From Anaerolineales bacterium (lineage in GTDB: Bacteria > Chloroflexota > Anaerolineae > Anaerolineales > Villigracilaceae), in the NCBI GenBank assembly GCA_020847435.1, contig JADLBX010000052.1:1-46035 (forward strand): a stretch of 46,035 nucleotides of DNA, written 5' to 3'. Positions 1,482 to 40,469 of this stretch are shown here, piece after piece. The notes beneath the pieces are model-generated. The model was not told the DNA's origin. It ran no database searches and saw nothing but the letters and a program-made list of their open reading frames with translations. Both the position numbers and the translations under genes were made by a program. How positions within the stretch are numbered: position 1 is the stretch's first letter; every line of letters begins with the position of its first letter.

Positions 1482-1580
1482 CTAGAGACTGAGGACTGGA
1501 CAAGTCTCTAGTTCCCAATTGAGTGAGCTTAGTAACGCAATTTGCTAAATTGCGTTTGGCAAATTGGCAATTTGCTCTAC
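1482..1580. repeat. Cluster of three palindromes, two resembling the GTAG-CTAC family
   Basis: A 9-bp hairpin (CTAGAGACT, 1482-1490, with AGTCTCTAG, 1503-1511) is followed by two overlapping 27-nt palindromes. The first (1532-1558) has arms around GCAATTT-GCT-AAATTGC. The second (1554-1580) has arms GGCAAATTG and CAATTTGCTCTAC around a central G. Both share length, single-base or near single-base centre, and the GCAAnTTG...CAAnTTGC core with the copies at 8047, 10605 and 32967. They fill the gap between the anti-sigma and cytochrome genes. Confidence 0.6.
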
Positions 1581-1612
1581 AACTTATGTTTGTAGATCGG
1601 CTAGATTCCAAT

Positions 1613-2422
1613 TCACGGAACAGGTTGGAGCGACTCGGCAACTTTAATCGCTTCCTCTAGCGGTAGAACCGTTTCAAGCCGATAGGTGACGTTGCCTTCC
1701 GCCCAGATCAGCACGTAGCCGTCAATCAACCGCGTGAACTCGAGGTTGCCGTTGGAATATCTAAGCGGGTATGGTCCCACCGCCCACACCGCGCGTTTAT
1801 CGTTGACAAGTGTTTCCTCGATCGTGACCGGTTCGGCTTTGCGAATCGCCCAACTTCCCTCTGGGATGAGGTGCAGGCTCAACAAAACTTTTTCCAAATC
1901 ATTTGGATCGAGCCAGATGAGGATGGTCATCGCGCCGTCGGCGTCTTGCACAAAGACATGGTCAGGCGCGCCTAAATCGGATGGATAGGTTGGCAAGAGA
2001 ATTTGATACTCGGACGCGACAAGCGACTGCGCTTGCGAAAGAGTCCGTTCACCGGCGAGTTTACTGAGGTCAACTAGAAGGGTTGAGGTTTCTAAATATG
2101 GCGTCGCGATTACAGGCGCATACGATTGAGGAGTTGTCGCTGTGGCTGTTTCGATCGGCGATTCGGTCGGGCGCGGGAAGATGCGGACGATTCCAATCTG
2201 GATGAATTCGAGGATGGCGGCGCGCGCCGGCGGGATGAGCATGAGGCTGAAGAGGAGGACAACGATGAGGGTTAGCGACCAAGCCCACCCTTTGGAAAGG
2301 AAGCGGGGTTTCGTCGCTGGAATGATGCGCGCCATCACACGTCCTGCAATATCGGGCGTGCGCGGATACGTTGTCTTTTTCGCGAGCGCTTGTAGTTGAT
2401 TCTCGAAATCCATTTCGCTCAT
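1613..2422 (-). CDS. Single-pass membrane anti-sigma factor
   Basis: A 269-residue protein with a short cytoplasmic N-terminus (1-45), one transmembrane helix (about 46-66, WAWSLTLIVVLLFSLMLIPP) and a large outer domain (about 90-269) with no cysteines or catalytic motif that I recognise. The topology, and a 4-bp ATGA overlap with the sigma gene upstream, identify it as the partner that holds the sigma factor at the membrane. No CHCC zinc motif is visible in the N-terminus, so it is not a ZAS-type anti-sigma. Translational coupling to the sigma gene would keep the two in balance. The outer domain is probably the sensor; its signal is unknown. Confidence 0.75.
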   Translation of the reverse strand: MSEMDFENQLQALAKKTTYPRTPDIAGRVMARIIPATKPRFLSKGWAWSLTLIVVLLFSLMLIPPARAAILEFIQIGIVRIFPRPTESPIETATATTPQSYAPVIATPYLETSTLLVDLSKLAGERTLSQAQSLVASEYQILLPTYPSDLGAPDHVFVQDADGAMTILIWLDPNDLEKVLLSLHLIPEGSWAIRKAEPVTIEETLVNDKRAVWAVGPYPLRYSNGNLEFTRLIDGYVLIWAEGNVTYRLETVLPLEEAIKVAESLQPVP

Positions 2423-2979
2423 GCTTTACGTCCTTCGACCAATACGGGGAAATCGTGACGAATAACGGTTCGCAATTTTTCGAGGGCGCGGCTCAACCGC
2501 GATTTGACGGTGCCCTCGGCAACCTGCAAGGTTTCAGCAGTTTCAACAACAGAGAGTTCGAGGAAATATCTCAGGTAGATGATTTGCTGGTCGGACATGT
2601 CCAGGCGTTGAACGGCGCGCCAGAGTTCGTTGGCGTCTGAGCGCTGGGCGCTGGCTTCGGCGAGCGGCGTCTCTGTTGGTTGTTCGCGAAAAGCGCGGGC
2701 TAGGGCAGCGAGGTAGCGCCCCGCGGAACGGCGGCGGTTGTGCGCGAGATTCGACGCGATGCTCAACAGCCACGGGCGCAATGGGCGCGTCGCGTCGAAG
2801 CGCTTGAGATGTTTCCAGGCGCGTAAAAAGGTTTCCTGCGCGATGTCTTCCGCATCGTCGGCATCGCCGAGGAGCAGGTAGGCAAGCCGGAAGACCGCTT
2901 GTTGGTGCGCCAACACGAGCGGTTCCCAAGCCGCCGCGTCGCCGTTTGCGGCGCGTCGAATTAGTGTGGGTTCATCCAA
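2419..2979 (-). CDS. ECF-family RNA polymerase sigma factor (sigma-70 family)
   Basis: A 186-residue protein of standard ECF size. Region 2 is visible from VFRLAYLLLGDADDAEDIAQ through TFLRAWKHLKRF and RPWLLSIASNLAHNRRR (residues about 30-85). Region 4 follows at about 120-180 with the helix-turn-helix LSVVETAETLQVAEGTVKSR. Regions 1 and 3 are absent, as expected. Its own upstream region carries a GGAACC-N17-GTATAA motif, which suggests autoregulation. A GAGG lies about 11 nt before the start. The gene overlaps its membrane anti-sigma factor by 4 bp. The regulon probably includes the cytochrome c gene two positions downstream. Confidence 0.92.
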   Translation of the reverse strand: MDEPTLIRRAANGDAAAWEPLVLAHQQAVFRLAYLLLGDADDAEDIAQETFLRAWKHLKRFDATRPLRPWLLSIASNLAHNRRRSAGRYLAALARAFREQPTETPLAEASAQRSDANELWRAVQRLDMSDQQIIYLRYFLELSVVETAETLQVAEGTVKSRLSRALEKLRTVIRHDFPVLVEGRKA

Positions 2980-3009
2980 TCATGCCTCTGCAGAGGTCCG
3001 GTTTATCAG

Positions 3010-3038
3010 TTATACACCGCCGGAGAATTTCAGGTTCC
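3010..3038 (-). promoter_or_regulatory. Putative autoregulatory ECF promoter of the sigma gene
   Basis: On the minus strand GGAACC (3038-3033), a 17-nt spacer ending in CGGCGGT, and GTATAA (3015-3010) precede the sigma start by about 30 nt. The arrangement is the same as at 1449-1477 (same -35, same spacing, GTA at the -10, CGGT before it). The remainder of the gap 2980-3303 holds only the palindrome at 3063-3115 and the kamA ribosome site. Confidence 0.6.
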
Positions 3039-3062
3039 GATTTCGATTGATCCACTAATCTT

Positions 3063-3115
3063 CGCTAATCCGCGCTAATCTATCAAGAGTTTGCGAAGAT
3101 TTGCGCGGATTAGCG
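3063..3115. repeat. Imperfect 19-bp inverted repeat (CTAATCCGCGC family)
   Basis: CGCTAATCCGCGCTAATCT (3063-3081) faces AGATTTGCGCGGATTAGCG (3097-3115), with one mismatch and a 15-nt loop. It lies between the divergent sigma and aminomutase genes. There is no T-tract, so a terminator is unlikely; a dispersed repeat is the better reading. Confidence 0.5.
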
Positions 3116-3303
3116 GATGAATGACTGCCAACTCGCCAAAAGGGACATTGACCCGATTTTTGTTTCCCCGTACAATTCAATTCAAGATGAACGCCTGTGT
3201 GCATAACGCCGGGTTTTTCAGACCCGACCACGATCCTCCGTTTCACTCATTTGCCGTATCTGTTTGAGTCGAATCCAAGCAATTACCCTCGGAGGAAAAC
3301 CCC

Positions 3304-4644
3304 ATGTCTGAACCTTTTGTTTCAAAGCGAGCGCCCATTTACGCCGACGTTCCCGATGAGAAGTGGAACGACTGGCGCTGGCAACTCAGCCACCGCATGA
3401 ATTCGGTCGAGGAGATCGAAAAAGTCCTGCCGCTCACCGACTCGGAACGCAAAGCCCTGCAAACGCAAGGATTGTTCCGCGTGGACATCACGCCCTATTT
3501 CATTTCGTTGATTGACCCGAACGACCCCGACGACCCGACCCGCAAACAGGTCATCCCGCTTTCGGAGGAACTGCAATCCTTCACTGCGATGATGGAAGAT
3601 TCGCTGGCAGAAGACCGCCACTCGCCGGTACCCGGGCTGGTGCACCGCTACCCGGACCGCGTCCTCATGCTGGTGACGACGCAATGCGCCTCGTACTGCC
3701 GCTATTGCACACGTTCGCGCATCGTCGGCGACCCGGGTCAAACCTTCTCGCGGCAGGAATTCGAGATGCAGATCGAATATCTCAAACGCACGCCGCAAGT
3801 GCGCGACGTCCTGCTCTCCGGCGGCGACCCGCTGGTGCTGGCGCCGAAAATTCTCGAGGAGATTCTCAGCCGCCTGCGCGAAATCCCGCACATCGAGATC
3901 ATCCGCCTTGGTTCGCGCGTGCCGGTCTTCATGCCGATGCGCGTCACGCAGGAACTGTGCGACATGCTCGCCAAGTATCACCCGCTGTGGATTAACATCC
4001 ACGTCAACCACTCGAACGAAATAACGAAGGAACTAGCCGAAGCCTGCGACCGTTTAACGAAGGCGGGCATCCCGCTCGGTAACCAGTCGGTGCTGCTGGC
4101 GGGCGTAAACGACAACGTGCATATCCAGCGCAAACTGGTGCAAGACCTTGTCCGTATCCGCGTGCGCCCGTACTACCTCTATCAGTGTGATTTGGTCGAA
4201 GGGGCTGGGCACTTCCGCACCCCCGTCGCGAAAGGAATCGAGATCATGGAAGGCTTGCGCGGGCATACCAGCGGCTACGCCGTCCCGCAATATATCGTCG
4301 ACGCGCCGGGCGGCGGCGGAAAAATCCCCGTCATGCCGAATTACCTGATCAGCATGTCCGACCATAAAGTCATCCTGCGGAATTACGAAGGCTACATTAC
4401 CACCTACGAGGAACCCACCAATTACCTGCCATCCGACGCGGCGAAGTTTAAAGGCGAAAAACGCCTCGAGCCCGGACAAGCCGGCGTACTCGGCTTGCTC
4501 GACGGCAGTGAGATGTTCATCAAACCTGAAAGTTTCGACGAAGTGCACGACCGTCACGGCATCCAACATCGCCTCAAGGATGAAAAGAAATGGCAGCCGC
4601 TTGGCATCGGCGACGGCGGCACAACCAAACCCAACGAAAAGTAA
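3304..4644 (+). CDS. kamA: Lysine 2,3-aminomutase (KamA family radical SAM/PLP enzyme)
   Basis: A 446-residue protein. It should convert L-lysine to L-beta-lysine using a [4Fe-4S] cluster, S-adenosylmethionine and pyridoxal phosphate. The radical SAM cluster motif is C128-x3-C132-x2-C135 (QCASYCRYCTRSR), GGDP follows at 173-176, and the PLP lysine is K340 in PGGGGK. The two aspartates known to bind the lysine side chain in the clostridial enzyme are present here as D296 (QCDL) and D333 (IVDAP), favouring lysine over glutamate. The C-terminal cysteine cluster that binds structural zinc in the clostridial enzyme is missing: after PTNY the chain runs through LPSDAAKFKGEK without cysteine. GGAGG precedes the start. 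Two lipoprotein genes follow in the same direction. Beta-lysine might serve as osmolyte precursor or in EF-P modification; no partner gene here decides this. Confidence 0.88.
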   Translation: MSEPFVSKRAPIYADVPDEKWNDWRWQLSHRMNSVEEIEKVLPLTDSERKALQTQGLFRVDITPYFISLIDPNDPDDPTRKQVIPLSEELQSFTAMMEDSLAEDRHSPVPGLVHRYPDRVLMLVTTQCASYCRYCTRSRIVGDPGQTFSRQEFEMQIEYLKRTPQVRDVLLSGGDPLVLAPKILEEILSRLREIPHIEIIRLGSRVPVFMPMRVTQELCDMLAKYHPLWINIHVNHSNEITKELAEACDRLTKAGIPLGNQSVLLAGVNDNVHIQRKLVQDLVRIRVRPYYLYQCDLVEGAGHFRTPVAKGIEIMEGLRGHTSGYAVPQYIVDAPGGGGKIPVMPNYLISMSDHKVILRNYEGYITTYEEPTNYLPSDAAKFKGEKRLEPGQAGVLGLLDGSEMFIKPESFDEVHDRHGIQHRLKDEKKWQPLGIGDGGTTKPNEK

Positions 4645-4664
4645 GTCAACGAAGGAGCAATAGT

Positions 4665-5318
4665 ATGGCAAACCACACGAAACGAATCCTGTTCACCGCG
4701 TTCAGCATCCTCTTTTTGGTCAGCGCCTGCCTGCCGCAACCTCAGGCGACACCCAACCCGGTGGATATCGCCAATCAAGTCGCGACTTCGGTCGCGCTGA
4801 CCGTCTCCGCCGCGCAGGCGCAGACGGAAGCCGCGCAACCGGTGGCGACGAACACCACGCTTCCCACCCAGACGGAGGCTGTCCCGCCCTCCCCGACCGT
4901 GCTCGTCCCTTCGGCGACTCCGCTCATCATCGTTCCCTCCACGCCCACGCTCGTCGTTGGCGGCGGTGGTGGAGGCGGGGTAGTGATTCAACCGGACTAC
5001 GATTGCACCCCCGTCAACAATAAGCCGCGCGACCTGACGGTCTTCAAAAAAGGCAACGAGTTCGATATCGTTTGGACTATCGTCAACACCGGCAAGAAGA
5101 TCATCCCGGCGAAGCACGATATCAAGTATTACAGCGGCACAAAATTGATGGAAGACCCGAACGACACCGTCCGCGAATTCGGCGTGGACCTCAAGCCGGG
5201 CGAATCGGTGACGATCATCATTGACGCCATTGCGCCCGCCGAAAAAGGCAAGCACGTGATGACCTGGCGCGTAGAGGGCGACATGTGCTACCCCTACATC
5301 GCGATCGTCGTCGAATAA
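4665..5318 (+). CDS. Lipoprotein with NBR1-like Ig domain, paralogue of the next gene
   Basis: The start at 4665 is chosen because GAAGGAG precedes it and a lipoprotein signal follows (lipobox LVSAC, lipidated Cys22). The 217-residue product has a Thr/Pro/Ala-rich linker (about 25-95), a run of glycines (GGGGGGG) and a C-terminal beta-sandwich (about 110-217) with the pattern VWTIVNTGKK...LKPGESVTIIID...GKHVMTWRV that marks NBR1/FW-type Ig-like domains. It is exposed on the outer face of the membrane, and no enzymatic motif is visible. It lies 20 bp after kamA and is followed within 30 bp by a protein of the same architecture, so the three are probably one transcript. Confidence 0.75.
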   Translation: MANHTKRILFTAFSILFLVSACLPQPQATPNPVDIANQVATSVALTVSAAQAQTEAAQPVATNTTLPTQTEAVPPSPTVLVPSATPLIIVPSTPTLVVGGGGGGGVVIQPDYDCTPVNNKPRDLTVFKKGNEFDIVWTIVNTGKKIIPAKHDIKYYSGTKLMEDPNDTVREFGVDLKPGESVTIIIDAIAPAEKGKHVMTWRVEGDMCYPYIAIVVE

Positions 5319-5344
5319 AACCCGCGCGGCAGTCTTGAGCAGGC

Positions 5345-5986
5345 ATGCAGAAAAACAAACTTTTGATCTGGTTGGGAGCCATCGCCCTGGCGCTGGCTTG
5401 CCTGCCAACTTCCAGCGTTTCACTTCCGACCGCTGAACCCGGCGCGGTCAATACCTACATCGTTCAAACAGCAGACGCCGCCGCCACGCAGACTGCCGCG
5501 GTCGCGCCCGCACCGGTCACTCCATCGTCAACTGCCAAGCCGACGTTCACGGTAACGCTCTCGCCCTCCCCGACGATCACGTTTGTGTTCATCCTGCCGG
5601 GCTTGGGCGTTTCCGGCACCCCAACCCTGCCCGGGATCGCCAGCGGCACGGATAAATCCCAATATGGTTGCAAGGTCTTCAGCGTCGAACCGGCGGATGG
5701 GACAGTTTATGAAACCCGCGAAGACTTCAGCGTCAAGTGGGGAGTAAAAAACATCGGCCGCGAAACATGGTATCGCGCCACCATGGATTACGTTTACTAC
5801 AGCGGCGCCAAATTACATAAGGTGGCTTCGTACAACCTACCCAAGGGCGCGGAACCCGGCAAAAACGTATACCTGAGCGCAGATATGGAAACGCTCAAGG
5901 AAAGCGGCACATTCACAACCAAATGGGCGCTTAAGATTGATAACCTCTATTTCTGCCCCATGACCCTCACCGTTATCGTAAATTAA
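5345..5986 (+). CDS. Second lipoprotein with NBR1-like Ig domain
   Basis: A 213-residue lipoprotein (lipobox ALALAC, Cys19) with the same plan as the gene before it: Thr/Pro-rich linker (about 25-95) and a C-terminal beta-sandwich (about 105-213) with VKWGVKNIGRETW, YYSGAKL and TFTTKWALKI. The two domains are similar enough (YYSG shared, same strand order, two conserved cysteines near the ends) to suggest tandem duplication. It is the last gene before a perfect rho-independent terminator. Function is unknown; binding to cell-surface polymer or protein is a guess. Confidence 0.72.
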   Translation: MQKNKLLIWLGAIALALACLPTSSVSLPTAEPGAVNTYIVQTADAAATQTAAVAPAPVTPSSTAKPTFTVTLSPSPTITFVFILPGLGVSGTPTLPGIASGTDKSQYGCKVFSVEPADGTVYETREDFSVKWGVKNIGRETWYRATMDYVYYSGAKLHKVASYNLPKGAEPGKNVYLSADMETLKESGTFTTKWALKIDNLYFCPMTLTVIVN

Positions 5987-5987
5987 A

Positions 5988-6022
5988 ACAGCGGCGACCA
6001 AAACGGTCGCCGCTGTTTTTTT
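5988..6022 (+). terminator. Rho-independent terminator of the kamA-lipoprotein operon
   Basis: A perfect 12-bp stem, ACAGCGGCGACC (5988-5999) with GGTCGCCGCTGT (6005-6016), and a 5-nt loop are followed by a run of T. It begins two bases after the lipoprotein stop codon. Confidence 0.93.
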
Positions 6023-6059
6023 GGCTCGTCCTTCTTACATAACGGGAAAGCCAATTCTT

Positions 6060-6338
6060 TTATTCGACACTGCTTTCCGGGGGAACCAAATCGCTCGCGT
6101 CCGGCTTCTTCCGCAAGGTGAAGAAACCGACGGCGACCGGCACAAGAATCATCAGGAAGGACAGACACAGGAACACATACCCATATGCCGTGGGCATCTG
6201 CTCGGTTGAATTTCCCAGCGTGTACGTTCCGCTGCCGGTGATTGTGCCGAAGCCCATGATGCAGGCGAACAGCGCGCAACAACCGCACAGGATCGCGGTC
6301 GCGACGGTCGCGATCATTCCAGTATTTTTGTTATTCAT
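6060..6338 (-). CDS. Small hypothetical membrane protein with two transmembrane helices
   Basis: A 92-residue protein with hydrophobic segments at about 8-32 (ATVATAILCGCCALFACIMG) and 52-74 (GYVFLCLSFLMILVPVAVGF), a short extracytoplasmic loop and a charged C-terminal tail. GGAGAG precedes the ATG, and a TATAAT (minus strand, 6371-6366) lies about 28 nt upstream, suggesting its own transcript. I do not recognise the family. It lies between the operon terminator at 5988 and the palindrome after pheT, convergent with the lipoproteins. Confidence 0.6.
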   Translation of the reverse strand: MNNKNTGMIATVATAILCGCCALFACIMGFGTITGSGTYTLGNSTEQMPTAYGYVFLCLSFLMILVPVAVGFFTLRKKPDASDLVPPESSVE

Positions 6339-6387: not shown

Positions 6388-6426
6388 ACATGATTCTGCG
6401 GCAGTTGAACTGCCGCAGAATCATGT
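6388..6426. repeat. Perfect 39-nt palindrome after pheT, possibly also its terminator
   Basis: Arms of 19 nt (starting ACATGATTCTGCGG) are exactly complementary around a single central G, with core GCAGTT-G-AACTGC. It starts 4 bp after the pheT stop codon. Reading with pheT, only a short TGTTTT follows, so termination is possible but not textbook. The same core recurs at 38789-38813. Confidence 0.75.
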
Positions 6427-6429
6427 CAA

Positions 6430-9060
6430 TCAGCTTCGCAACTTCGCGCCGACTTCGTGCTCCAGCCGTTTGACGATCTTCGTGCGGATCGCCGCGGCTT
6501 CGGCGTCGGTCATCGTTTTGTCCGATTGATAGGTCAGGTTGTACGCCAGCGACTTCTTCCCCGCGCCGATCTTTTCATCGCGGTAGACGTCGAACAGGCG
6601 GACGCGGGTCACGGTTCTTCCGCCAGTCTGCCTGATGAGGCTCTCGACGCGTTCCGCCGCCACCGCTTCATCCACAATGACGGCGATATCCTCGAACACT
6701 GGCGGGAACTCGGAGACGGGCGTGATCCCATACGTCGGAGCGGCGTTTCGCAACGCGTCCAAGTCAAACTCAGCGACGATCACCGCTGTTTCAAAATCGT
6801 ATCTTTCTTTCGCCAGCGGATGCAATTCGCCGAACACGCCGACGGTCTGCCCGTTCACTTTCACTTCGGCGGCTTTGCCCGGGTGGAGGTATTCCGCGCT
6901 GAGCGGAGCCGAGGGCGAAGACGAAGCGGGGGCTGGGGCATAGGAAATGCCGCTAAGGCGCAGTCCGCTCAACAGGAGTTCGATGCGGCCCTTCATGTCG
7001 TAGAAATCGTACGAGGGGGAATCCTTCACATCCCACGCGGAGGCGAGACGTGCGCCCGTCATGACTATTGCAAGTTTGCGCGGTTCGTTAGGGAGTCCAT
7101 TTTGTTGCGGCTCGAAAACGGGACCAATCTCGAACATGGCGAGCGAACCGCCGCGCGCATTCTTTTCAGCGGTCTCAAGCAAAGACGCGGGCAGACTGCG
7201 CCGCATCACACTGCGTTCGGGCGCGATGGGATTAGCCAATACTACGTGTTCCCGAAGGGTCTGAGACCCTTCGGGAGCAAAGAGGCGGCTCTCGCGTTCG
7301 CGCGAAGTCATGCGATAGCTGACAACCTCCTGCAAGCCAAGCGCGACGAGGAGATCGCGGGTGCGCTCCTCCCACTCGTGTTGAGGGTTGCCCAACTGCG
7401 GCGGGAGCGAATCGGACATGCGCGTTTCGGGGATGCGGTCGTAGCCGTAGACGCGCGCAACTTCTTCCAACACATCCGCGAGACCGACCGCGCCCTCGCC
7501 AATATCGAGGCGATGCGGCGGAGTTTTCGCTTTGACAATATTCTTTTCGACCGTGCATTTGAATTCGAGACGCGTGAGCAGTTCGGCAATCTGTTTCGCC
7601 GTGAGTTCGATACCGAGCAAGCGTTTGACGTCTTTCGGCGTGATGGCGATCATCGGGTCTTTCGGCTTGAGCGGATATTCGTCCACCAGCCCGGGCGCGA
7701 TAACTCCGCCCGACCACTCTGCCATGAGTTGAAGTCCGCGCTTCACGCCTTGCTCCGCCAGTGCAGGATGCACGCCGCGCGAGAATCGAAATGACGCTTC
7801 AGACTGCAAGTTGTGCTGTCCCGCCGTCTTACGCGTGTTGATCGAATTCCAGTTCGCGCCTTCGAGCAAGACCGTCTTCGTTTTGTCGGTCACTTCGGAT
7901 TCAAGCCCGCCCATCACTCCAGCTAGCGCGAGCGATCCTTTTTCATCACAGACGAGCACATTTGCCGAGGTGAGCGTTCGCTCGTTGCCATCGAGCGTGG
8001 TGAGTTTTTCGCCGTCCTGCGCGGCGCGGGTGATGATTTTGATCTTGTAGGGCAAGTTGCCAACTTGCCCTACGCGTCCTACTAAAACATCATAATCAAA
8101 CGCGTGCAACGGCTCACCGACATCGAGCATCGCGTAGTTGGTCGCGTCCACAATATTGTTGATGGGACGCATCCCCGCCAGCCTTAGCCGTCGCTGAATG
8201 TGATACGGACTGGGTTTGATTTCGATGTCACGAATCAATCCCATCACAAAGCGCGGGTTGAGTTCGGGAACGGTGATTTCGATTTCAACGAGGTCGGTTA
8301 CTGATTTCTGCGTACTGCGTACTGCGTTTTTTCCCTGCTTACCTGTCTCCTTGTCTCCCTGTTTACCTGTTTCCTTGTTTACGTGTTTCCGCAATTCCCG
8401 CCCAGTCAACGCGGCGAGTTCACGCGCCACGCCAAGCACGTTCGCGTTGCGCGCCATGCTCGGCAAAATGGAAATATCCAACACGGCGTCGCCCATGTAA
8501 TCGGTGAGCGGCATCCCCACAGGCGCATCGTCATCGAGCAGGATGATCCCCTCGTGTTCCTCGGAAATGCCGAGTTCTTTTTCGGAGCAGACCATCGAGT
8601 AGGATTCCACACCGCGAATCTTGGCGCGCTTCAGTGTGGTTAACACCAACCCGTCCACGTGACCATCGTAAATTGTTGAGCCTTCCTTGGCATACGCGGC
8701 TTTGATCGGTTTGGCGAGTTTTCCAGTCCCTTTGAGGTGGAAAATATTCGGCGCGCCTGTCAGCACGGTTTGATTCTGTGTGCCGTCGAACAGATCGAGC
8801 AAGGTCAATCGGTCCGCGTTGGGATGCGGCATCACCTCGCGGATCTCCGCCACGACGAGTTTTTCCTTGTCCCAGCCGATGCCGCTGGTCTTGAACTCGT
8901 GCTTCTCGCCGTCTTTGTATTCGGGCATCGGCAAGCCCGCGTACTTGATCTCGTCCACTTCGAGACCTGCCAGCGTCAACTTGCGGGCGATGTCTTCAAC
9001 GGAGAGACCGTCGAGGTCAATGTAATCTTTGAGCCATGAAATAGGTATTTTCATCTTCAA
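6430..9060 (-). CDS. pheT: Phenylalanyl-tRNA synthetase beta subunit, with repeat-encoded insertions
   Basis: An 876-residue protein, longer than the usual ~800. With PheS it forms the alpha2-beta2 enzyme that charges tRNA-Phe. Visible parts are the N-terminal tRNA-binding domain (about 45-150, KLVVAEIREVMPHPNADRL), the B3/B4 editing region (about 260-450, RPINNIVDATNY, LAGVMGG), B5 (about 470-545) and the C-terminal FDX-ACB domain (about 780-876, FPPVFEDIAVIVDE). The extra length coincides with repeat DNA: residues about 226-241 (two copies of KETGKQGD), 330-338 (VGQVGNLPY, a 27-nt palindrome), 596-604 (a 25-nt palindrome) and a serine/proline stretch near ASSSPSAPLSAEY whose DNA shares CCGCGCTGAGCGGAGCCG with the repeat near 41460. 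All are in frame. AAGGAA lies before the start. It is co-directional with pheS and probably co-transcribed through the 82-bp repeat array. Confidence 0.95.
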   Translation of the reverse strand: MKMKIPISWLKDYIDLDGLSVEDIARKLTLAGLEVDEIKYAGLPMPEYKDGEKHEFKTSGIGWDKEKLVVAEIREVMPHPNADRLTLLDLFDGTQNQTVLTGAPNIFHLKGTGKLAKPIKAAYAKEGSTIYDGHVDGLVLTTLKRAKIRGVESYSMVCSEKELGISEEHEGIILLDDDAPVGMPLTDYMGDAVLDISILPSMARNANVLGVARELAALTGRELRKHVNKETGKQGDKETGKQGKNAVRSTQKSVTDLVEIEITVPELNPRFVMGLIRDIEIKPSPYHIQRRLRLAGMRPINNIVDATNYAMLDVGEPLHAFDYDVLVGRVGQVGNLPYKIKIITRAAQDGEKLTTLDGNERTLTSANVLVCDEKGSLALAGVMGGLESEVTDKTKTVLLEGANWNSINTRKTAGQHNLQSEASFRFSRGVHPALAEQGVKRGLQLMAEWSGGVIAPGLVDEYPLKPKDPMIAITPKDVKRLLGIELTAKQIAELLTRLEFKCTVEKNIVKAKTPPHRLDIGEGAVGLADVLEEVARVYGYDRIPETRMSDSLPPQLGNPQHEWEERTRDLLVALGLQEVVSYRMTSRERESRLFAPEGSQTLREHVVLANPIAPERSVMRRSLPASLLETAEKNARGGSLAMFEIGPVFEPQQNGLPNEPRKLAIVMTGARLASAWDVKDSPSYDFYDMKGRIELLLSGLRLSGISYAPAPASSSPSAPLSAEYLHPGKAAEVKVNGQTVGVFGELHPLAKERYDFETAVIVAEFDLDALRNAAPTYGITPVSEFPPVFEDIAVIVDEAVAAERVESLIRQTGGRTVTRVRLFDVYRDEKIGAGKKSLAYNLTYQSDKTMTDAEAAAIRTKIVKRLEHEVGAKLRS
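7251..7275. repeat. 25-nt perfect palindrome inside pheT
   Basis: CCCGAAGGGTCT (7251-7262) and AGACCCTTCGGG (7264-7275) surround a single G. It is translated in frame as part of a surface-like segment (FAPEGSQTLREH). The GGGTCT...AGACCC core recurs in the thiolase-like gene (38528-38551), and a close relative sits in the MITE at 15648. Confidence 0.7.
8047..8073. repeat. GTAG-CTAC palindrome (27 nt, perfect) inside pheT
   Basis: GTAGGGCAAGTTG (8047-8059), a central C, and CAACTTGCCCTAC (8061-8073). It is read in frame as VGQVGNLPY between FDYD and the segment ending in DGEK, where PheT proteins normally have a shorter loop (about 11 residues shorter in B. subtilis as I recall it). It is the best-preserved member of the family. 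Confidence 0.85.
8309..8384. repeat. Repeat insertion in pheT: GCGTACT motif plus two 24-nt tandem units
   Basis: TGCGTACTGCGTA (8309-8321), identical to half of the palindrome at 22660-22695, is followed by two near-identical 24-nt units (8337-8360 and 8361-8384) that encode KETGKQGD twice. The segment follows the conserved NVLGVARELAALTG helix and is extra relative to typical PheT. All units are multiples of three, keeping the frame. Confidence 0.7.
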
Positions 9061-10390: not shown

Positions 10391-10450
10391 GTAAGGGCAC
10401 AGCGAGTCATCAAACGACTTTGACGATCTCGCGTTTCGCTGTGCCCCTAC
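10391..10450. repeat. 60-nt GTAG-CTAC element in the pheS leader
   Basis: GTAAGGGCACAGCGA (10391-10405) and TCGCTGTGCCCCTAC (10436-10450) form nearly perfect 15-nt arms around a 30-nt loop. A sister copy of exactly the same length lies at 37511-37570, with near-identical arms and a loop that matches in part (ACGA, TGACGAT). It lies downstream of the T-box terminator and would be transcribed in the readthrough mRNA. Confidence 0.8.
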
Positions 10451-10462: not shown

Positions 10463-10740
10463 ACAAAAACCTCCCGTCCACAAAATGGGACGAGAGGGAG
10501 TCTCGCGGTACCACCCAAGTTAATCATCCTTATCAGAACAATTCTCTTTGCGCTGACATTCATCAGCCACTCCGCTAACGTGGAGAATACGGTTCACACT
10601 ACTTGTGGCGCAAGATGGCATCTTGCGCTACGTTCACACGAACGGCTCGAGAGGGAACTTCGACTGGTTTCGGGCGAATGCAACTTTCAGCGAGTACGTT
10701 GCATCTCTCTGGCGGCTTCTGCCGGTTTACTTTCCTCTGT
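10463..10740 (-). promoter_or_regulatory. T-box riboswitch controlling pheS-pheT (tRNA-Phe, UUC specifier)
   Basis: On the minus strand, GAGGAAAGTAAACC begins Stem I at about 10737, CAGAGAGA follows, and the specifier position just before CCTCTCGAGCC is TTC (10657-10655), the codon for Phe. The T-box sequence GGGTGGTACCGCGAGA lies at 10516-10501. The terminator stem CTCTCGTCC/GGACGGGAG with a T-rich tail is at 10500-10463. Uncharged tRNA-Phe should stabilise the antiterminator. A 27-nt palindrome (10605-10631) is inserted between Stem I and the antiterminator. Confidence 0.93.
10605..10631. repeat. GTAG-CTAC palindrome inside the T-box leader
   Basis: GTGGCGCAAGATG (10605-10617), central G, CATCTTGCGCTAC (10619-10631). 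It has the same 27-nt length and layout as the copies in pheT and in the HMG-CoA reductase gene, with different but complementary core bases (ATG/CAT in place of TTG/CAA). Confidence 0.75.
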
Positions 10741-10846
10741 CACAGCCTTTGAGTTGATTGGGCTTATTATCTGCGGAAACGGGAGGCTGTCAAGGCGCTA
10801 GAAACGCCGACGCATGGCGAGGCAGGCTGAACCGTCGAACGAAGCG

Positions 10847-15647: not shown

Positions 15648-15756
15648 AGGACTTACGCAAAACCACACTTTTTTGCAAAGACGGTCTGTGACCGCCGTGT
15701 TCTTCGAGCCGCCTCGCAGGGTCACAGACCCTGCGGGAGCATTCTGCGTAAGTCCT
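15648..15756. mobile_element. 109-bp MITE with 12-bp perfect terminal inverted repeats
   Basis: AGGACTTACGCA (15648-15659) and TGCGTAAGTCCT (15745-15756) are exact complements. Inside, GGTCTGTGACC and GGTCACAGACC are again complementary to each other, and CAGGGTCACAGACCCTG forms its own hairpin. The inner GGGTC...GACCC motif relates it to the palindromes inside pheT (7251) and the thiolase-like gene (38528). There is no coding frame. Terminal repeats of this kind are known from insertion sequences, but no parent element is in the window. Confidence 0.75.
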
Positions 15757-23715: not shown

Positions 23716-23765
23716 GTAGGATGCGTTCTCTAACGCATCCATTGACGTTAGAGAACGTCGCCTAC
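23716..23765. repeat. 50-nt GTAG-CTAC element at the end of cdsA
   Basis: GTAGGATGCGTTCTCTAACG (23716-23735) faces CGTTAGAGAACGTCGCCTAC (23746-23765), mostly complementary. The last bases of the element contain the cdsA stop codon (TAG on the minus strand, 23764-23762). Confidence 0.75.
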
Positions 23766-32196: not shown

Positions 32197-32267
32197 GGCG
32201 CGAATTATCCCATAAAACATGATAGATTTTGGCAGAAATCGAGCATACAATCACGAGCATAAAAATC

Positions 32268-33557
32268 ATGACCACTTCACGCATCCCCGGCTTCTACAAT
32301 TTGACTCTCGCAGAGCGACGCGCCAAACTAGCGGACGCGGCGGGTCTTTCGCCCTTTGAGCTGACTCCGTTTACCAGCCCTCTCGCATCTGACGTCGCTT
32401 CGAACATGGTCGAAAACGCCGTAGGGACATTTTCTCTCCCCCTCGGCATCGCGCTCAACTTCATCGTGAACGGACGCGAGACACTCATCCCAATGGTTAT
32501 CGAGGAGCCGTCTGTTGTGGCGGGCGTTTCGTTTATGGCAAAGCTCGCCCGCGCGGGCGGAGGATTCACGGCTACAAGTACAGAGCCGCTGATGATCGGT
32601 CAATTGCAAGTGTTGGAGGTCGAAGACGCGGAAAAAGCCGCCGAGCGGATTTTGGCGCACAAAGCCGAACTGTTGACGTACGTTGACGCCGCCGAATCAA
32701 GCCTAAAGTCCAGAGGCGGAGGCGCACGTGATCTCGAAGTCCGCATCATCCCAGAATCCCCCATCGGAAAATTTCTCGTCGTGCATCTCATCTACGACGT
32801 GCGCGACGCGATGGGCGCCAACGCGGTCAACACGGCTTGCGAGCGTCTCGCGCCGAGAATCGAAACCATCACAGGTGGACGCGTCCACTTGAAAATTCTC
32901 TCGAACTTGACCGACAGGCGCATGGCAAAGGCAACGTGCATGATTCCCGTCAAAGATTTGGATTTTGTAGCGCAAGTTGCCAACTTGCGTTACAGCGGCG
33001 AGGATGTTAGAAATGGAATCATCGAAGCATGGGCGTTTGCGGCAAGCGACCCCTACCGAGCCGCGACGCACAACAAAGGAATCATGAACGGCGTGGACGC
33101 GGTCGTCATCGCCACTGGCAACGACTGGCGCGCCATTGAAGCGGGCGCGCACGCCTACGCGGCGCGTTCGGGGAAGTACACTTCGTTGTCGGTGTGGAGC
33201 AAAGATGGCGAAGGGAATCTGGTCGGCGAGTTGGCAATGCCGCTGGCGGTGGGAATCGTCGGCGGCGCGACCAAAGTCCACCCTGTCGCGCAAGCCGCAA
33301 TCAAGTTGATGAACGTCAAATCCGCTGGCGAGTTAGCAGAGATCATCGTCTCGGTGGGACTGGCGCAAAATCTGGCGGCTCTGCGCGCTCTCGCCACCGA
33401 AGGCATCCAGCGCGGACACATGTCGCTCCACGCGCGGCAGGTCGCCATCGCCGCGGGCGCGACGGGAGAATTGATCGAAAGAGTAGCGAACCAATTGGCG
33501 GCGGAAAAAAATGTGCGGGTTGACCGCGCAGCAGAGATTTTGAAGGGAATGGCGTAG
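32268..33557 (+). CDS. mvaA: Class II hydroxymethylglutaryl-CoA reductase with a repeat-encoded insertion
   Basis: The start at 32268 (MTTSRIPGFY) matches class II enzymes. The 429-residue product interconverts HMG-CoA and mevalonate. Landmarks are MVENAVGTF, VIEEPSVVAG (catalytic glutamate region, 79-80), DVRDAMGANAVNT (179-189), K270 in THNKGIMNG, D286 in ATGNDWRA and H384 in GIQRGHMSLHA. Residues 234-242 (VAQVANLRY) are encoded by a 27-nt palindrome. As I recall the Pseudomonas mevalonii enzyme, this loop is about six residues shorter there. The stop codon TAG is part of another GTAG-CTAC element. With the HMG-CoA synthase gene 3 kb on, it points to mevalonate-based isoprenoid synthesis rather than mevalonate degradation. 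Confidence 0.93.
   Translation: MTTSRIPGFYNLTLAERRAKLADAAGLSPFELTPFTSPLASDVASNMVENAVGTFSLPLGIALNFIVNGRETLIPMVIEEPSVVAGVSFMAKLARAGGGFTATSTEPLMIGQLQVLEVEDAEKAAERILAHKAELLTYVDAAESSLKSRGGGARDLEVRIIPESPIGKFLVVHLIYDVRDAMGANAVNTACERLAPRIETITGGRVHLKILSNLTDRRMAKATCMIPVKDLDFVAQVANLRYSGEDVRNGIIEAWAFAASDPYRAATHNKGIMNGVDAVVIATGNDWRAIEAGAHAYAARSGKYTSLSVWSKDGEGNLVGELAMPLAVGIVGGATKVHPVAQAAIKLMNVKSAGELAEIIVSVGLAQNLAALRALATEGIQRGHMSLHARQVAIAAGATGELIERVANQLAAEKNVRVDRAAEILKGMA
32967..32993. repeat. GTAG-CTAC family palindrome (27 nt) inside mvaA
   Basis: GTAGCGCAAGTTG (32967-32979), central C, CAACTTGCGTTAC (32981-32993), one mismatch. It is translated as VAQVANLRY. Layout and length are the same as at 8047-8073 in pheT. 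Confidence 0.85.
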
Positions 33558-33627
33558 GGGCAGACCTGCGTGTCTGCCCTTTGTGTATGCCCAAATAACA
33601 AGGGCGGACACATAGGTCCGCCCCTAC
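33554..33627. repeat. 74-nt GTAG-CTAC element overlapping the mvaA stop codon
   Basis: GTAGGGGCAGACC starts at 33554 and GGTCCGCCCCTAC ends at 33627. Inside, GTGTCTGCCCTTTGTG faces AACAAGGGCGGACAC, so the whole element folds into one imperfect hairpin. The TAG of the leading GTAG is the mvaA stop. The element extends to 10 bp before the next gene. Confidence 0.8.
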
Positions 33628-34963: not shown

Positions 34964-35101
34964 GTAGCGGGACGCTACGCAGTCCCTCCCTCAGTCCATG
35001 AAAGCCACTTCGACAGGCTCAGTGCGCCGCCTACGGGCTGACAAGCCAGTCGGCTTCAGCCGACTTCCACGCCCTGAGGCAGGACTTTAGTCCGCACCGC
35101 A
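34964..35101. repeat. Compound repeat region with several hairpins
   Basis: GTAGCG/CGCTAC (34964-34978), then the CTTCGACAGGCTCAG word (about 35010), and AGTCGGCTTCAGCCGACT (about 35049-35066) form a patchwork of short palindromes in the 224-bp gap before the orphan gene. No gene or terminator is evident. Confidence 0.5.
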
Positions 35102-36405: not shown

Positions 36406-36420
36406 TTACGGAAAATTAAA

Positions 36421-37503
36421 ATGACAACCCCTCACCCTCGCCATTCCCCCACCCTCCTCAAACCCGCCAAACCCGTTGGCATCATTGGCTACGGCGCGTA
36501 CGTGCCGCGTTATCGCCTGCCTGCCAAGGAAGTTGCCCGCGTATGGACGGGCGGCAAAGGCGGACTCCCCATCAAGGAGAAAGCCGTCCCTGGGCTGGAT
36601 GAAGACGTGATCACCATGTCCATTGAAGCGGCGCGCAACGCGATGAAACGCGCCCAAATTGACCCGACCGAACTGCGGGCGGTGTGGGTCGGGAGCGAGT
36701 CGCATCCGTACGCCGTGAAACCAACCTCCACGTTGGTCGCCGAAGCGATTGGCGCCGTCCCGAACACGCAAGCCGCCGACTGGGAATTCGCCTGCAAGGC
36801 TGGCACCGAAGCGATGGTCGCCGCGATGGGCTTGGTCGGCTCGGGCATGGGCAAATACGCGCTGGCGATCGGCATGGACACCGCGCAAGGCAAGCCAGGC
36901 GACGCGCTCGAATACACGGCAGGCGCGGGCGGCGGCGCGTACATCCTCGGTCCCGCCGAAGAATCGCTTGCGATCATCAACGCCTCGTATTCGTACGTCA
37001 CCGACACACCCGATTTCTGGCGCCGCTCCGATGCGAAGTATCCCGAACACGGTATGCGCTTCACGGGCGAGCCCGCCTACTTCAAACACGTCAGCGAAGC
37101 CGCCACGCATCTCATGGAAGCCGCAGGCACGACCGCCAAAGATTACAAGTGGGCGGTCTTCCACCAGCCTAACACGAAGTTCCCGCAACGCGTCGCCTCT
37201 CAACTCGGATTTTCAATGGACAGCATCGCGCCTGGGCTTCTCGTCCCTGTGATCGGGAACACGTACGCGGGCGCGGCGATGATCGGACTCACTGCGACTC
37301 TCGACATCGCCCAACCTGGGGATCGGATACTCGTCGTTTCATTCGGAAGTGGGGCTGGTTCAGACGCCTTCGACATCACCGTCACCGACGCCGCTCCGCT
37401 CCGCGCCAGCCTCGCCACGAAGACTCAAGAATACATCGCCCGCCGCACGGAAATTGATTACGCCACGTATGTCCGCTTCCGCGGGAAGTTGCAAATGAAA
37501 TAA
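36421..37503 (+). CDS. Hydroxymethylglutaryl-CoA synthase, archaeal type
   Basis: A 360-residue thiolase-superfamily enzyme that condenses acetyl-CoA with acetoacetyl-CoA. The catalytic residues look intact: the glutamate region in [16 protein letters not shown], the nucleophilic cysteine in [12 protein letters not shown], and the histidine in [15 protein letters not shown]. The start [16 protein letters not shown] and [17 protein letters not shown] near the end are typical of the archaeal/bacterial subgroup that functions together with a thiolase and a DUF35 protein. A thiolase-like gene follows, but no DUF35 gene is found. The ribosome site is weak. With mvaA it supplies the first committed steps of the mevalonate pathway. 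Confidence 0.92.
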
Positions 37504-37510
37504 ATTACAC

Positions 37511-37570
37511 GTAGGGGCACAGCGAGACGAATCACGATTCTGACGATTAACCATTTCGCTGTGCCCCTAC
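37511..37570. repeat. 60-nt GTAG-CTAC element between HMG-CoA synthase and thiolase-like gene
   Basis: GTAGGGGCACAGCGA (37511-37525) and TCGCTGTGCCCCTAC (37556-37570) form 15-nt arms. The 30-nt loop shares ACGA and TGACGAT with that of the sister copy at 10391-10450, and the total length is identical. Confidence 0.85.
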
Positions 37571-37584
37571 AATTGGACATAAAC

Positions 37585-38763
37585 ATGACAGAAGTTATCA
37601 TCGCAGGTATCGGACAAACGGAAGTCGGCGAGCATTGGGACATTGGTCTGCGTGAGCTTGCCTTCGCCGCCATTCAAGACGCGGTCAAAGATTCGGGCGG
37701 ATTGAAGCCGCAATCGCTATTCGTCGGCAACATGCTCGCGCCGAATCTTTCCAATCAGGCGCATCTTGGCGCGTTGATCGCCGACTATGCGGGTTTGCTC
37801 GGTATCGAAGCCGTGACCATCGAAGCGGCAGGCGCGTCGGGCGGCGCGGCGTTGAGACAGGGTTATCTCGCCGTCAAAAGCGGGCTTGTGGATGTTGCGC
37901 TCGTCGTTGGCGTGGAAAAGTTTACGGACAAGGTCGGCTCAGGCGTGGACGCGGCTCTCGCCACCACAGGCGATGCCGATTTTGAATCCGTGCAGGGGAT
38001 GACTCCCGCCGCGCAAGCCGCGCTGTTGATGAAGCGTTACATGCACGAGTACGATGTCCCTGCTGACGGCTTCGCTGGCTTTGCATTGACGGCTCATGCA
38101 AACGGCGTTGCAAATAAAAATGCGATGTTCCGCAAAGCCATCAAACCTGAGACCTATGCCAAAGCGGAGATGGTCAGCGACCCGCTCAACATGTTCGACA
38201 TGGCTCCGAATGCGGACGGCGCGGCGGCAATTGTGTTGACTCGGCAGGATTTGTTGCCAAGCAATTTCTCACATCCGCTGGTGAAGGTCGCTGGCTCGGC
38301 TTCTTCATCGGACACGTTGGCATTGCATGACCGAAAAGACATGCTGTACTTCGACACCGCGCAAATCTCCGCTGGCAAGGCGATGAAACAAGTCGGCGCG
38401 GTGTTGGATGATATTGACCTATTCGAATATCACGACACGTTCAGCGTGTATGCCGCGTTGCAACTCGAAGCGGTTGGGTTTGCGATCAAAGGGAAGGGTT
38501 GGCGTCTCGCCGCGGATGGGCTTATTTCGCTGGGGTCTGGAGACCCCAGCGGAGCGCGGCGCATTCCTTGCGCGACGATGGGCGGGATGAAAGCGCGAGG
38601 GTTTGCGGGCGGAGCCTCAGGCGTGTATCAGGCTGTCGACGCGGCGACCCAGCTTCAAGGTCGGGCTGAAGCGAATCAAATCCTGAACGCGCGTACGGCG
38701 TTGATCCAGTCATTGGGCGGACCCGCATCTACGGCAGTGAGTCACATTTTGCAAGTGGTATAG
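37585..38763 (+). CDS. Thiolase-like protein lacking the nucleophilic cysteine
   Basis: The start at 37585 (MTEVIIAGIG) matches the family start. The 392-residue product belongs to the archaeal-type acetyl-CoA acetyltransferase/SCP2-thiolase group that pairs with HMG-CoA synthase. The active site is eroded: the nucleophile position in IEAAGASGGAAL is Gly83 (codon GGC at 37831-37833, one base from TGC), and the C-terminal GHP motif reads GFAGGASG with Phe340 (codon TTT). The first histidine, H283 in EYHDTFS, is retained. Residues about 315-325 (SLGSGDPSGAR) are encoded partly by a palindrome. By family knowledge it should not catalyse normal condensation. A structural or channelling role next to the intact HMG-CoA synthase is possible, as is a base error at position 83, though two independent losses make that less likely. 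Confidence 0.85.
   Translation: MTEVIIAGIGQTEVGEHWDIGLRELAFAAIQDAVKDSGGLKPQSLFVGNMLAPNLSNQAHLGALIADYAGLLGIEAVTIEAAGASGGAALRQGYLAVKSGLVDVALVVGVEKFTDKVGSGVDAALATTGDADFESVQGMTPAAQAALLMKRYMHEYDVPADGFAGFALTAHANGVANKNAMFRKAIKPETYAKAEMVSDPLNMFDMAPNADGAAAIVLTRQDLLPSNFSHPLVKVAGSASSSDTLALHDRKDMLYFDTAQISAGKAMKQVGAVLDDIDLFEYHDTFSVYAALQLEAVGFAIKGKGWRLAADGLISLGSGDPSGARRIPCATMGGMKARGFAGGASGVYQAVDAATQLQGRAEANQILNARTALIQSLGGPASTAVSHILQVV
38528..38551. repeat. 24-nt perfect palindrome inside the thiolase-like gene
   Basis: CGCTGGGGTCT (38528-38538), GG, AGACCCCAGCG (38541-38551). It shares the GGGTCT...AGACCC core with the palindrome in pheT at 7251-7275. It is read in frame (SLGSGDPSGA) just before the conserved GGMKARG motif. 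Confidence 0.7.
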
Positions 38764-38788
38764 TGCGTCGCACAATCAACCCGATGAT

Positions 38789-38813
38789 CGTCCCGCAGTT
38801 GAACTGCGGGACG
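38789..38813. repeat. 25-nt perfect palindrome after the thiolase-like gene
   Basis: CGTCCCGCAGTT (38789-38800), G, AACTGCGGGACG (38802-38813). Same GCAGTT-G-AACTGC core as at 6388-6426. There is no T-run. A TATAAT (38874-38879) then precedes the next gene by 22 bp. Confidence 0.7.
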
Positions 38814-38901
38814 AACTGTTCTACTTGCAAATTTTCGAGATTCGGGGGTACAATCCGCCTGTCCAAAATTATATATAATGTACAATTTCTAAGGAGTCAG
38901 A

Positions 38902-40404
38902 ATGACAGGCTTCACTCCAGGACGACGCTGGCAACCCGCCTACCTCCCCTTCCAAAAAGAGACGTTCGGCGAGCGCGCCTTGCGCGTGATCGAATACAGC
39001 GTGAAGGGTCCGCTGTTCGGGTGCCGCATGTGCGGCAATTGCCTGCTCGCCGAAACCGCGCTCGTGTGCCCGATGGAATGCCCGAAGGGTTTGCGAAACG
39101 GTCCGTGCGGCGGCTCGACCTCCGAAGCCTGTTACGTTGACCAAAGCCGCCCGTGCGTGTGGTATCACATTTACGATCGTTCGTTCAAGTGGGGTCGCGA
39201 AGATGTGTTGCTCGAAGCGCTGCCCCCGCTCGATTGGGAAAAAGTGGGAAAAGATTCGTGGGGCGCGATCATTCGCAACGCGCACAACATTGGATTCAAA
39301 AAAATTTTTACGGGATTGCTTTCAGCGAAGACACGCGCGCAAACAATTGATGGGATTCTCCGCCCTGTGCGTCAGCCTGAATGGTGGAATGGCGATGCGG
39401 AGTATCATCCGCCTGCATACGTGGAACCCGCTTCTTCTCTTCAGGGACGGCTGGTCGCAGGCGATTTTGTCGTCACCGCCGAGTTGACGCCTCCCCTCTC
39501 CGCCTCGACCGAGAAGTTGATCCGCAACATCGAACTGGTGAGGAATCTCGTCACCGCAGTGAACTTCACGGACAATCAATCTGCGACGCCGCGCATGTCG
39601 TCGTGGGCGTGCAGTACGGTTGCGATTCAACATGGCGCAGAGCCTGTCCTGCAAATGTCGGCGCGCAACCGTTCTCGTGGAAGCCTGCAAAGCGAGATCG
39701 TCGGCGCGACTGCTTTGGGCGTGCGAAACGTTCTGTGCGTGACAGGCGACAGCGCGAAGATGTCTCCTTCCCCGCGCGACCAGATGGACATCAACGATCT
39801 GGATTCGATCCAAATGTTGTGGGTCTTGCGGCGAATGCGCGATGAAGGGAAATATCTGGACGGGCGCGAGATCAAACATCCGCCGATGTTCTTCCTCGGC
39901 GCGGCGGCTTCGCCATTTTCGTCGAACGTAAAGTTTCAGGCACTGCGCGAACAGAAGAAGGTCAATGCAGGTGCACAGTTCTTCCAAACGAATTTGATCT
40001 TCGATGTGGATGGAATGGAACTCTGGCTTAACGAACTTGCTAAGCGAAATATCTTGGACAAAGTTTACATTCTCGCTGGCGTCACTCCCATCAAGAGCTT
40101 GAAGATGGCGCAGAAACTGGCGGAAGTGCCTGGCGTGCATTTGCCAATGAATGTCTTGCGCCGCATGGAAACCGCCGACCGCGCGGACAACGCGCAGGAA
40201 GAGGGAATCCAAATTGCGCTTGAAGTCATCAGCCGAATAAAAACGTATCACAATCAGGGCATTCACGGAATCCACTTGATGCCCGTCGGCTGGGATGAGG
40301 TCATTCCGAGGATTGTCACGGAGGCGGGGATAGTTCGTCGGAATAAATTCCTGCCTCAGTTCATGGAAGTCCGCTCAAGCGGACTCGGAGTGCCTGCTGT
40401 CTAG
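38902..40404 (+). CDS. MetV-MetF fusion: zinc-type methylenetetrahydrofolate reductase
   Basis: A 500-residue two-domain protein. The N-terminal part (about 25-110) is the MTHFR C-terminal-like/MetV domain, rich in cysteines: C41, C44, C47 (CRMCGNC), C56, C60 (CPMECPKGLRNGPCGG), C69, C77 and C85. The MetF-like TIM barrel follows (about 188-490) with VTAELTPPL (catalytic Glu194), NFTDNQSATPRMS, LQMSARNRSR, LCVTGDSAKMSPSP and MNVLRRMETADRA. It should reduce 5,10-methylene-tetrahydrofolate to 5-methyl-tetrahydrofolate. In acetogens MetV and MetF are separate subunits; here they are fused with MetV first. AAGGAG lies before the start. A methyltransferase that could use its product follows. Confidence 0.88.
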   Translation: MTGFTPGRRWQPAYLPFQKETFGERALRVIEYSVKGPLFGCRMCGNCLLAETALVCPMECPKGLRNGPCGGSTSEACYVDQSRPCVWYHIYDRSFKWGREDVLLEALPPLDWEKVGKDSWGAIIRNAHNIGFKKIFTGLLSAKTRAQTIDGILRPVRQPEWWNGDAEYHPPAYVEPASSLQGRLVAGDFVVTAELTPPLSASTEKLIRNIELVRNLVTAVNFTDNQSATPRMSSWACSTVAIQHGAEPVLQMSARNRSRGSLQSEIVGATALGVRNVLCVTGDSAKMSPSPRDQMDINDLDSIQMLWVLRRMRDEGKYLDGREIKHPPMFFLGAAASPFSSNVKFQALREQKKVNAGAQFFQTNLIFDVDGMELWLNELAKRNILDKVYILAGVTPIKSLKMAQKLAEVPGVHLPMNVLRRMETADRADNAQEEGIQIALEVISRIKTYHNQGIHGIHLMPVGWDEVIPRIVTEAGIVRRNKFLPQFMEVRSSGLGVPAV

Positions 40405-40412
40405 CGTAAGAC

Positions 40413-40469
40413 GTAGCGCGACATTCATGTCGCCTTATGTTGGGTAGAGCGACATGAATGTCGCAGTAC
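40413..40469. repeat. 57-nt GTAG-TAC hairpin element
   Basis: GTAGCGCGACATTCATGTCGC (split as GTAGC plus the 16-nt arm GCGACATTCATGTCGC) faces GCGACATGAATGTCGC followed by AGTAC. The two 16-nt arms are exact complements. It lies between the reductase and methyltransferase genes. Confidence 0.8.

Follow-up and report, generated by a model that had tools for sequence, protein, structure and literature searches.

The palindromes scattered through the window, a 46,035-nucleotide stretch of an Anaerolineales genome, are very probably repetitive extragenic palindromic (REP) sequences and REPINs (REP doublets forming hairpins), short non-autonomous mobile hairpins made and spread by REP-associated tyrosine transposases (RAYTs; TnpAREP, HuH Y1). 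Ten such elements, treated as a single family in the original prediction, which was made from the sequence alone, make up about five families whose partners, where found, differ. The genus contains several RAYT lineages, many of them with flanking hairpins of a family of their own, and hairpins pair with clade C RAYTs in family F1, clade B in F4 and clade F in F5. Orthologous sites are filled, empty or occupied by different elements. The reuse of one site by unlike hairpins across species is the less expected part, and the turnover record is unusually clear. The window (G000:C52) is one of 74 contigs of a 3.05-Mb assembly (88.6% complete), and the comparison set comprises 18 congeneric genomes, including its own (G000).

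Palindrome families and arm covariation

Inverted repeats are present in all ten predicted intervals. Two depart from the proposed CTAC end: 1532-1558 ends in TTG and 40413-40469 in GTAC. The ten elements are as follows.

1532..1558, degenerate F1-type REP with CAATTTG arms; core 1.5 differences from a hairpin beside the genome's own clade C RAYT, L150
1554..1580, degenerate F1-type REP adjoining 1532..1558; no core differences from a clade C RAYT flank in L118
8047..8073, F1 double-foot REP in frame in pheT, minus-strand VGQVGNLPY; site compared by ortholog alignment
10391..10450, F2 element with GTARGGGCACAGCGA-like ends and an unconserved interior; other elements or none at the orthologous site
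10605..10631, F1 double-foot REP within the second T-box helix (apical loop), by RF00230 consensus comparison and ortholog alignment
23716..23765, F5 REPIN, two head-to-head GTAG hairpins with a GCGTTCTCTAACGC-type core that exactly matches a clade F RAYT flank (L094)
32967..32993, F1 double-foot REP in frame in HMG-CoA reductase, VAQVANLRY; site compared in 16 genomes
33554..33627, F3 REPIN, two hairpins with a GTAGGGGC foot, common to G012 at the same place
37511..37570, F2 element; another element at the site in G012
40413..40469, F4 REPIN, two GCGACATTCATGTCGC hairpins whose cores exactly match a clade B RAYT flank (L113)

F1 (8047, 10605 and 32967, with degenerate copies at 1532 and 1554) is a 27-base palindrome bearing a foot at each end, GT[AG]G 5' of the hairpin and its reverse complement C[TC]AC at the 3' end. 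Its core, GCAAGTTGSCAACTTGC, occurs at 36 places in the window's own genome with at most two mismatches (reversed control, 1), a copy number below the >100 given as usual for REPs (PMC2817692). The elements at 23716, 33554 and 40413 each consist of two hairpins placed head to head, a REPIN-like arrangement, with three different cores. F2 (10391 and 37511) comprises near-identical ends around an unconserved interior of ~30 bases, and the interiors hardly align. A search for exact 12-base F2 ends returned six copies in G000, five in G012 and single copies in G010 and G014; the remaining 14 genomes gave no match. A hairpin common to the F2 interiors was sought and not found, the folds varying between copies. 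Several of the 13 exact-end copies from these four genomes carry a weak TTTTGACGA motif in the middle of the interior.

For the analysis of covariation, copies were chosen by feet and centre alone (GTAG-N7-TGNCA-N7-CTAC, seven arm pairs free), a pattern used in place of a covariance model because it provides a less biased test. It has 60 forward matches in the 18 genomes and one in the reversed control. Complementarity holds for 393 of 420 free pairs, against 254 on average and 285 at most when right arms were dealt among copies in 2000 shuffles. All seven pairs are complementary in 43 of the 60 copies and none in a single copy, a chance match in G008. The palindrome excess and the arm covariation are real, and the proposal that structure is conserved over sequence stands. 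That the two arms change together is borne out for F1-pattern copies; it does not describe 10391 and 37511, which share their ends around the unconserved interior.

Some arms recur, including GACAAAT in 19 of the 60 pattern copies and GGTCAAATTG in nine of 12 strict copies in G021, a genome of another genus, and in four of the 17 strict copies listed for G118. Across the order, the strict pattern is present in eight of 121 sampled genomes (53 forward matches versus 0 in the control). A GTDB-based collection that may leave out records near the window's own genome has 27 stretches with the exact F1 27-mer: 26 are labelled as Chloroflexota groups, ten of them from one assembly (Prado092), and one as Blastocatellia.

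Within the window, footed palindromes were defined by a start of GT[AG][AG], an end of CTAC, CCAC or TTAC and at most one mismatch across the next eight arm bases. Six are present, compared with a mean of 0.06 and a maximum of two in 100 Markov shuffles. Inverted repeats with 12-base arms and at most one mismatch gave 140 overlapping matches versus 6-23 in ten shuffles. Thirteen of 41 window hairpins match one of 150 RAYT-adjacent hairpins, compared with 35 of 2000 random palindromes; one of the 13, at 43015, is borderline and may be a chance match. The window also holds palindromes of further RAYT-linked types absent from the original prediction.

6388..6426, REP-like palindrome of clade H RAYT type, CGGCAGTTGAACTGCCG, 1 difference
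7250..7276, REP-like palindrome of clade G type within the pheT frame, GGGTCTGAGACCC, 1.5 differences from a RAYT flank
15681..15735, REP-like pair of clade G RAYT type, GGGTCACAGACCC; the 15715-15735 core is identical to a RAYT flank in L088
38788..38814, REP-like palindrome of clade H RAYT type, 1.5 differences

RAYT partners of the hairpins

A PF01797 search of the window's own genome revealed five Y1 genes, L001 to L005. The clade B RAYT L005 (C45) carries GCGACATTTATGTCGC, the 40413 family, on each side. L004 (C57) is flanked by GCAAACTT-AGTTTGC hairpins with GTAC feet and L003 by GCGGACTT-AGTCCGC hairpins, and L002 is an IS200-type gene (73 bits against a cut-off of 55) that has flanking repeats of its own. 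The F1 partner lies outside the PF01797 list and was located by protein search: a clade C RAYT at C24:130218-130799, 65% identical to L118, with an F1-type hairpin before and behind. These loci support the suggested RAYT link and answer the proposed check for a RAYT-like gene elsewhere in the genome: the same hairpins flank clade C (F1) and clade B (40413) genes.

Clade C RAYTs are present in six of the 18 genomes (G000, G004, G010, G013, G016 and G017). F1-type hairpins stand beside all six copies, on both sides in five and on one side in G017. The G010 copy is flanked by GCGGGATG and GCGGATTG hairpins, and two near-identical ones lie side by side at the pheT site of that genome. Strict F1 counts are 8, 12, 3, 14, 2 and 2 in the clade C genomes and 0 to 5 in the 12 genomes without clade C (one-sided Mann-Whitney p 0.011, no kinship correction). 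Clade F RAYTs, seen in relatives (the own genome was searched with PF01797 alone), occur as one gene each in five genomes, all five with GCGYTCTCTARCGC-type hairpins, which correspond to the 23716 core. The elements at 40413 and 23716 are REPINs, inverted REP pairs with a cognate RAYT; clade I is a tentative partner for 33554.

The aligned RAYTs (8/8) have invariant His-x-His, Trp and Tyr residues and an invariant Y-x-x-x-NP. WQ appears in the four clade C rows; in clades A and B, W is followed by other letters. The genome's own clade C copy has THGH. The sole PDB match of the RAYT profile is TnpArep 4er8 (E 2.8e-7). With NF047646 (cut-off 80), L101 (86.8), L107 (118.3) and L117 (101.4) score above the threshold, L118 (77.3), L149 (76.0) and L168 (63.1) fall below it, and L003 (35.7) matches over the core only. 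In a tree of 46 rows, hairpin labels A, D, E, F, G and H each form a supported clade; these labels, like the element labels at the orthologous sites below, were assigned by eye. The tree leaves out L115 and L119, and the genes L118, L095 and L101 are also numbered L147, L151 and L152, respectively.

The flank survey covered Y1 loci with a frame of at least 130 amino acids containing NHxH. The 26 loci lacking such a frame (L032-L057) are, by length and score, probably in many cases IS200-like or a long Y1 protein. The latter (L040-L048 among others; 408-567 amino acid frame, PF01797 E 2e-15 to 5e-13) is single copy in 16 of 18 genomes, a pattern more suggestive of a conserved gene than of a transposon. 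In a different RAYT lineage (L087, L091 and L105), the flanking palindromes are long, as in AAGTGACAGTCACTTTAAAAGTGACTGTCACTT, and lack GTAG feet.

Copies inside genes and at orthologous sites

Two host genes and one leader in the window contain F1 copies.

6430..9060, minus strand, pheT (phenylalanyl-tRNA synthetase beta), Pfam B3_4, B5, tRNA_synthFbeta and FDX-ACB
10483..10752, minus strand, T-box leader upstream of pheS (Pfam), RF00230, 103.3 bits, gathering 93
32229..33557, plus strand, HMG-CoA reductase, Pfam PF00368, 382 bits

Occurrence in coding DNA, also noted in the original prediction, extends beyond the window. Among 44 F1-like places, drawn from the window and 35 own-genome loci picked for holding matches, seven lie in frame within genes with recognised domains: pheT, HMG-CoA reductase, a family 4 glycosidase, a fused shikimate kinase/dehydroquinate synthase (between the domains), methionyl-tRNA synthetase (after the last domain), a class IV aminotransferase and recQ. 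Six share a reading frame that yields V-[GAT]-Q-[VI]-[AG]-N-L-[PSR]-Y, and recQ uses another; in the third frame, the foot GTAG yields a TAG stop. The Pfam scan covered five own-genome F1-bearing frames plus L205, which had no match, and the count of seven excludes frames in, for example, L206, L207, L208, L210, L212, L218, L228 and L233. The T-box copy is mostly an insertion relative to the Rfam consensus.

Presence/absence variation among relatives, the lack of which would have counted against the original prediction, was found at the HMG-CoA reductase, pheT, T-box and 10391 sites. The HMG-CoA reductase site, compared in 16 genomes (G003 and G009 left out), holds a palindrome in 13, of at least three kinds: nine F1-type (double in G001), two GTAGGGGC-type (G012 and G007), one nested (G011) and one other short palindrome (G004), with G005, G006 and G017 empty. 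These labels require at least six changes on a tree of the rest of the protein, and their clustering is little above that of shuffled labels (52 of 200 shuffles equally low). At the pheT site, F1 is present in five of ten genomes with two arm types, the G010 pair in one, and four are empty. The T-box site has a hairpin, in some cases imperfect, in eight of nine genomes and none in the ninth. Three of nine genomes are empty at the 10391 site; the other six carry at least four unlike elements.

The 33554 element is shared with G012, the closest relative, at the same site, and the G012 elements at the 37511 site (compared for the window, G012 and a few further genomes) and the 40413 site differ from those of the window. 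A GCGACATNAATGTCGC hairpin occupies the 40413 site in G010, G013 and G014. Both F2 sites (the orthologs of 10391 and 37511, on G012:C1) are taken in G012 by palindromic elements of TCATTGCGAG and TCGTTGCGAGG type, which belong to another class.

The RAYT locus itself varies. In five of the six clade C genomes, the clade C RAYT lies directly before a homocysteine S-methyltransferase gene (PF02574, PF02219); without the RAYT, the locus holds a half hairpin in G012 and a lone double-foot-like hairpin in G011 and G005. At L237, L244 and L252, it appears as if the RAYT came or went between hairpins.

Mechanism, alternatives and published systems

E. coli TnpAREP requires GTAG, and its cleavage at CT falls on either the 5' or the 3' side of the hairpin; in Marinomonas, cut-site choice is guided by the foot (PMC8266576). 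By analogy with this biochemistry, the RAYTs described here would recognise a single-stranded hairpin with its GTAG foot and cut at CT. The closing CTAC of a double-foot REP would place CT directly behind the hairpin on both strands; with a guide and a CT on each, either strand may be usable. Recognition of foot and pairing rather than arm sequence would let arms drift and a genome-specific version spread, copies probably deriving from the RAYT-borne version. Hairpin-tolerant sites (enzyme loops, the T-box loop, gene ends) would be struck repeatedly and their occupants exchanged, sometimes across families. Replication template switching may polish arms within a site and would neither swap families nor empty a site. 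It is possible, if somewhat doubtful, that RAYTs of different lineages use existing REPs as landing or exchange sites, with GTAG/CTAC feet as reusable sockets: the HMG-CoA reductase loop, pheT loop, T-box helix and RAYT locus would stay occupied over genus-level time, with occupants swapped within and between families and the frame kept in genes.

Several results weigh against RAYT-driven mobility. G012, with one contig, has F1 copies and no clade C RAYT, and none of the 27 named exact-F1 loci has a clade C RAYT within the fetched stretch; the only RAYT there is one clade I-like gene in L069. No RAYT with GGGGCACAGCG (F2) ends is among the RAYT loci examined, and the tie of F3 (33554) to clade I is the shared foot alone. 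The own-genome L150 (73.1, clade C), L004 (73.9, clade A) and L005 (73.3, clade B) fall slightly below the NF047646 cut-off, the own clade C copy reaches 20 of the 23 bits of the Pfam cut-off, and hairpin labels B and C are not resolved as single clades in the tree. Net full-versus-empty differences are 18 bases at the HMG-CoA reductase site (two genomes measured) and 15 at pheT (four), multiples of three and not clean 27-base gains. No movement was observed, and draft assemblies limit claims of absence.

Part of this would follow if the palindromes were old REPs, vertically inherited with little or no current movement and kept complementary by template switching (quasipalindrome correction), a process established in general (PMC8794818, PMC8604942). 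The retention of F1 in G012 without its RAYT fits this account, as do F1 elements whose two arms change in step at shared pheT, HMG-CoA reductase and T-box sites of many species. The loop-centre base flips between orthologs, which is predicted by re-insertion and template switching alike. However, template switching cannot convert F1 to the GTAGGGGC element found in G012 and G007 or to the empty site of G005, G006 and G017, and it leaves the dispersed identical GACAAAT and GGTCAAATTG copies unexplained. We regard this explanation as rather unlikely.

Retention by selection, with the hairpins acting in RNA or DNA as terminators, mRNA stabilisers or riboswitch parts, rather than by mobility would accord with the many copies that are intergenic or near gene starts and ends, with the T-box hairpin kept in 8/9 aligned genomes and with the view that GTAG REPs act partly as RNA (PMC3733652). 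Relatives with empty sites (pheT 4/10, HMG-CoA reductase 3/16, T-box 1/9, 10391 3/9) and in-frame insertion in seven unrelated genes make such an origin improbable. That the palindromes are miniature inverted-repeat transposable elements of the genome's IS200/IS605 elements is highly implausible: the genome does carry the IS200-type L002 with flanking repeats, but these are unlike F1, F4 and F5, which match RAYT flanks, and no IS200 copy bounded by F1 ends is among the loci examined.

Mobile REPs and REPINs remain the favoured reading, and the series bears on an open question, since REP movement and RAYT persistence are obscured by how rarely insertion is seen. One genus with several RAYT lineages, matched hairpins and sites whose occupants are present, exchanged or missing across as many as 16 species offers a natural series for separating insertion, excision, replacement and template-switch repair. 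In it, a mobile hairpin lengthens the coding frame of core enzymes and also occupies a T-box helix.

The suggestion that symmetric GTAG/CTAC elements form an undescribed class does not hold; a 2018 paper already describes double-foot REPs of the GTAG...CTAC form, in-frame insertions included (PMC6006769). In it, Quentin et al. describe 'double foot' REPs (GT[AG]G plus C[TC]AC) of TnpAREP subclass 2.4, or RAYT group 4, with in-frame gene insertions; these REPs are reported to abound in Cyanobacteria and Bacteroidetes and to be scattered among other phyla (PMC6006769). The present elements share the feet, the cognate flanking TnpAREP and the in-frame insertions, and by motif comparison clade C RAYTs have His-x-His, WQ and Y-x-x-x-NP against the NHxH, WQ and YIxNNP-type motifs of subclass 2.4. 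Unlike the cases reported there, the present elements come from Anaerolineales, with several families per genome and cross-species site reuse (PMC6006769).

Di Nocera et al. 2013 reported 24 GTAG families with alternative complementary stems and intragenic copies, and different REPs at about the same site in two Xanthomonas recB genes (PMC3733652). The window's elements resemble these in the GTAG foot, in stems of 6-13 bp that have alternative complementary residues, in forming dimers and in intragenic copies that include tRNA synthetases, and differ in that the tag is at one end in that scheme (PMC3733652). Rickettsia palindromic elements likewise lie in frame in genes, but have a CGTC tag and no dedicated transposase known to the same authors (PMC3733652). 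A Rickettsia-type element was set aside, the feet here being GTAG/GTGG and not CGTC. REPINs and bacterial interspersed mosaic elements were reportedly treated by Bertels and Rainey in 2011. As two head-to-head REPs, 23716, 33554 and 40413 agree with the REPIN definition (PMC6006769); F1 differs as a single perfect palindrome with both feet.

The literature listings searched, which take in few subscription journals, yielded no report of REPs in Anaerolineae, of a T-box containing a REP or of families replacing one another at a single site across many species. The only member of the phylum that we noticed among GTAG-REP hosts is T. roseum, which we take to belong to Chloroflexota. Its GTAG-23 repeats are clustered (PMC3733652).

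Three further repeats lie in the window. The repeat at 40334-40390 has many copies in the genus and also flanks both sides of the IS200-like gene L002 (C32:105932-105984 and 106561-106616); it is probably an IS200-linked repeat. Two more dispersed repeats, at 34986-35095 and 41311-41400, have copies in many congeneric genomes.

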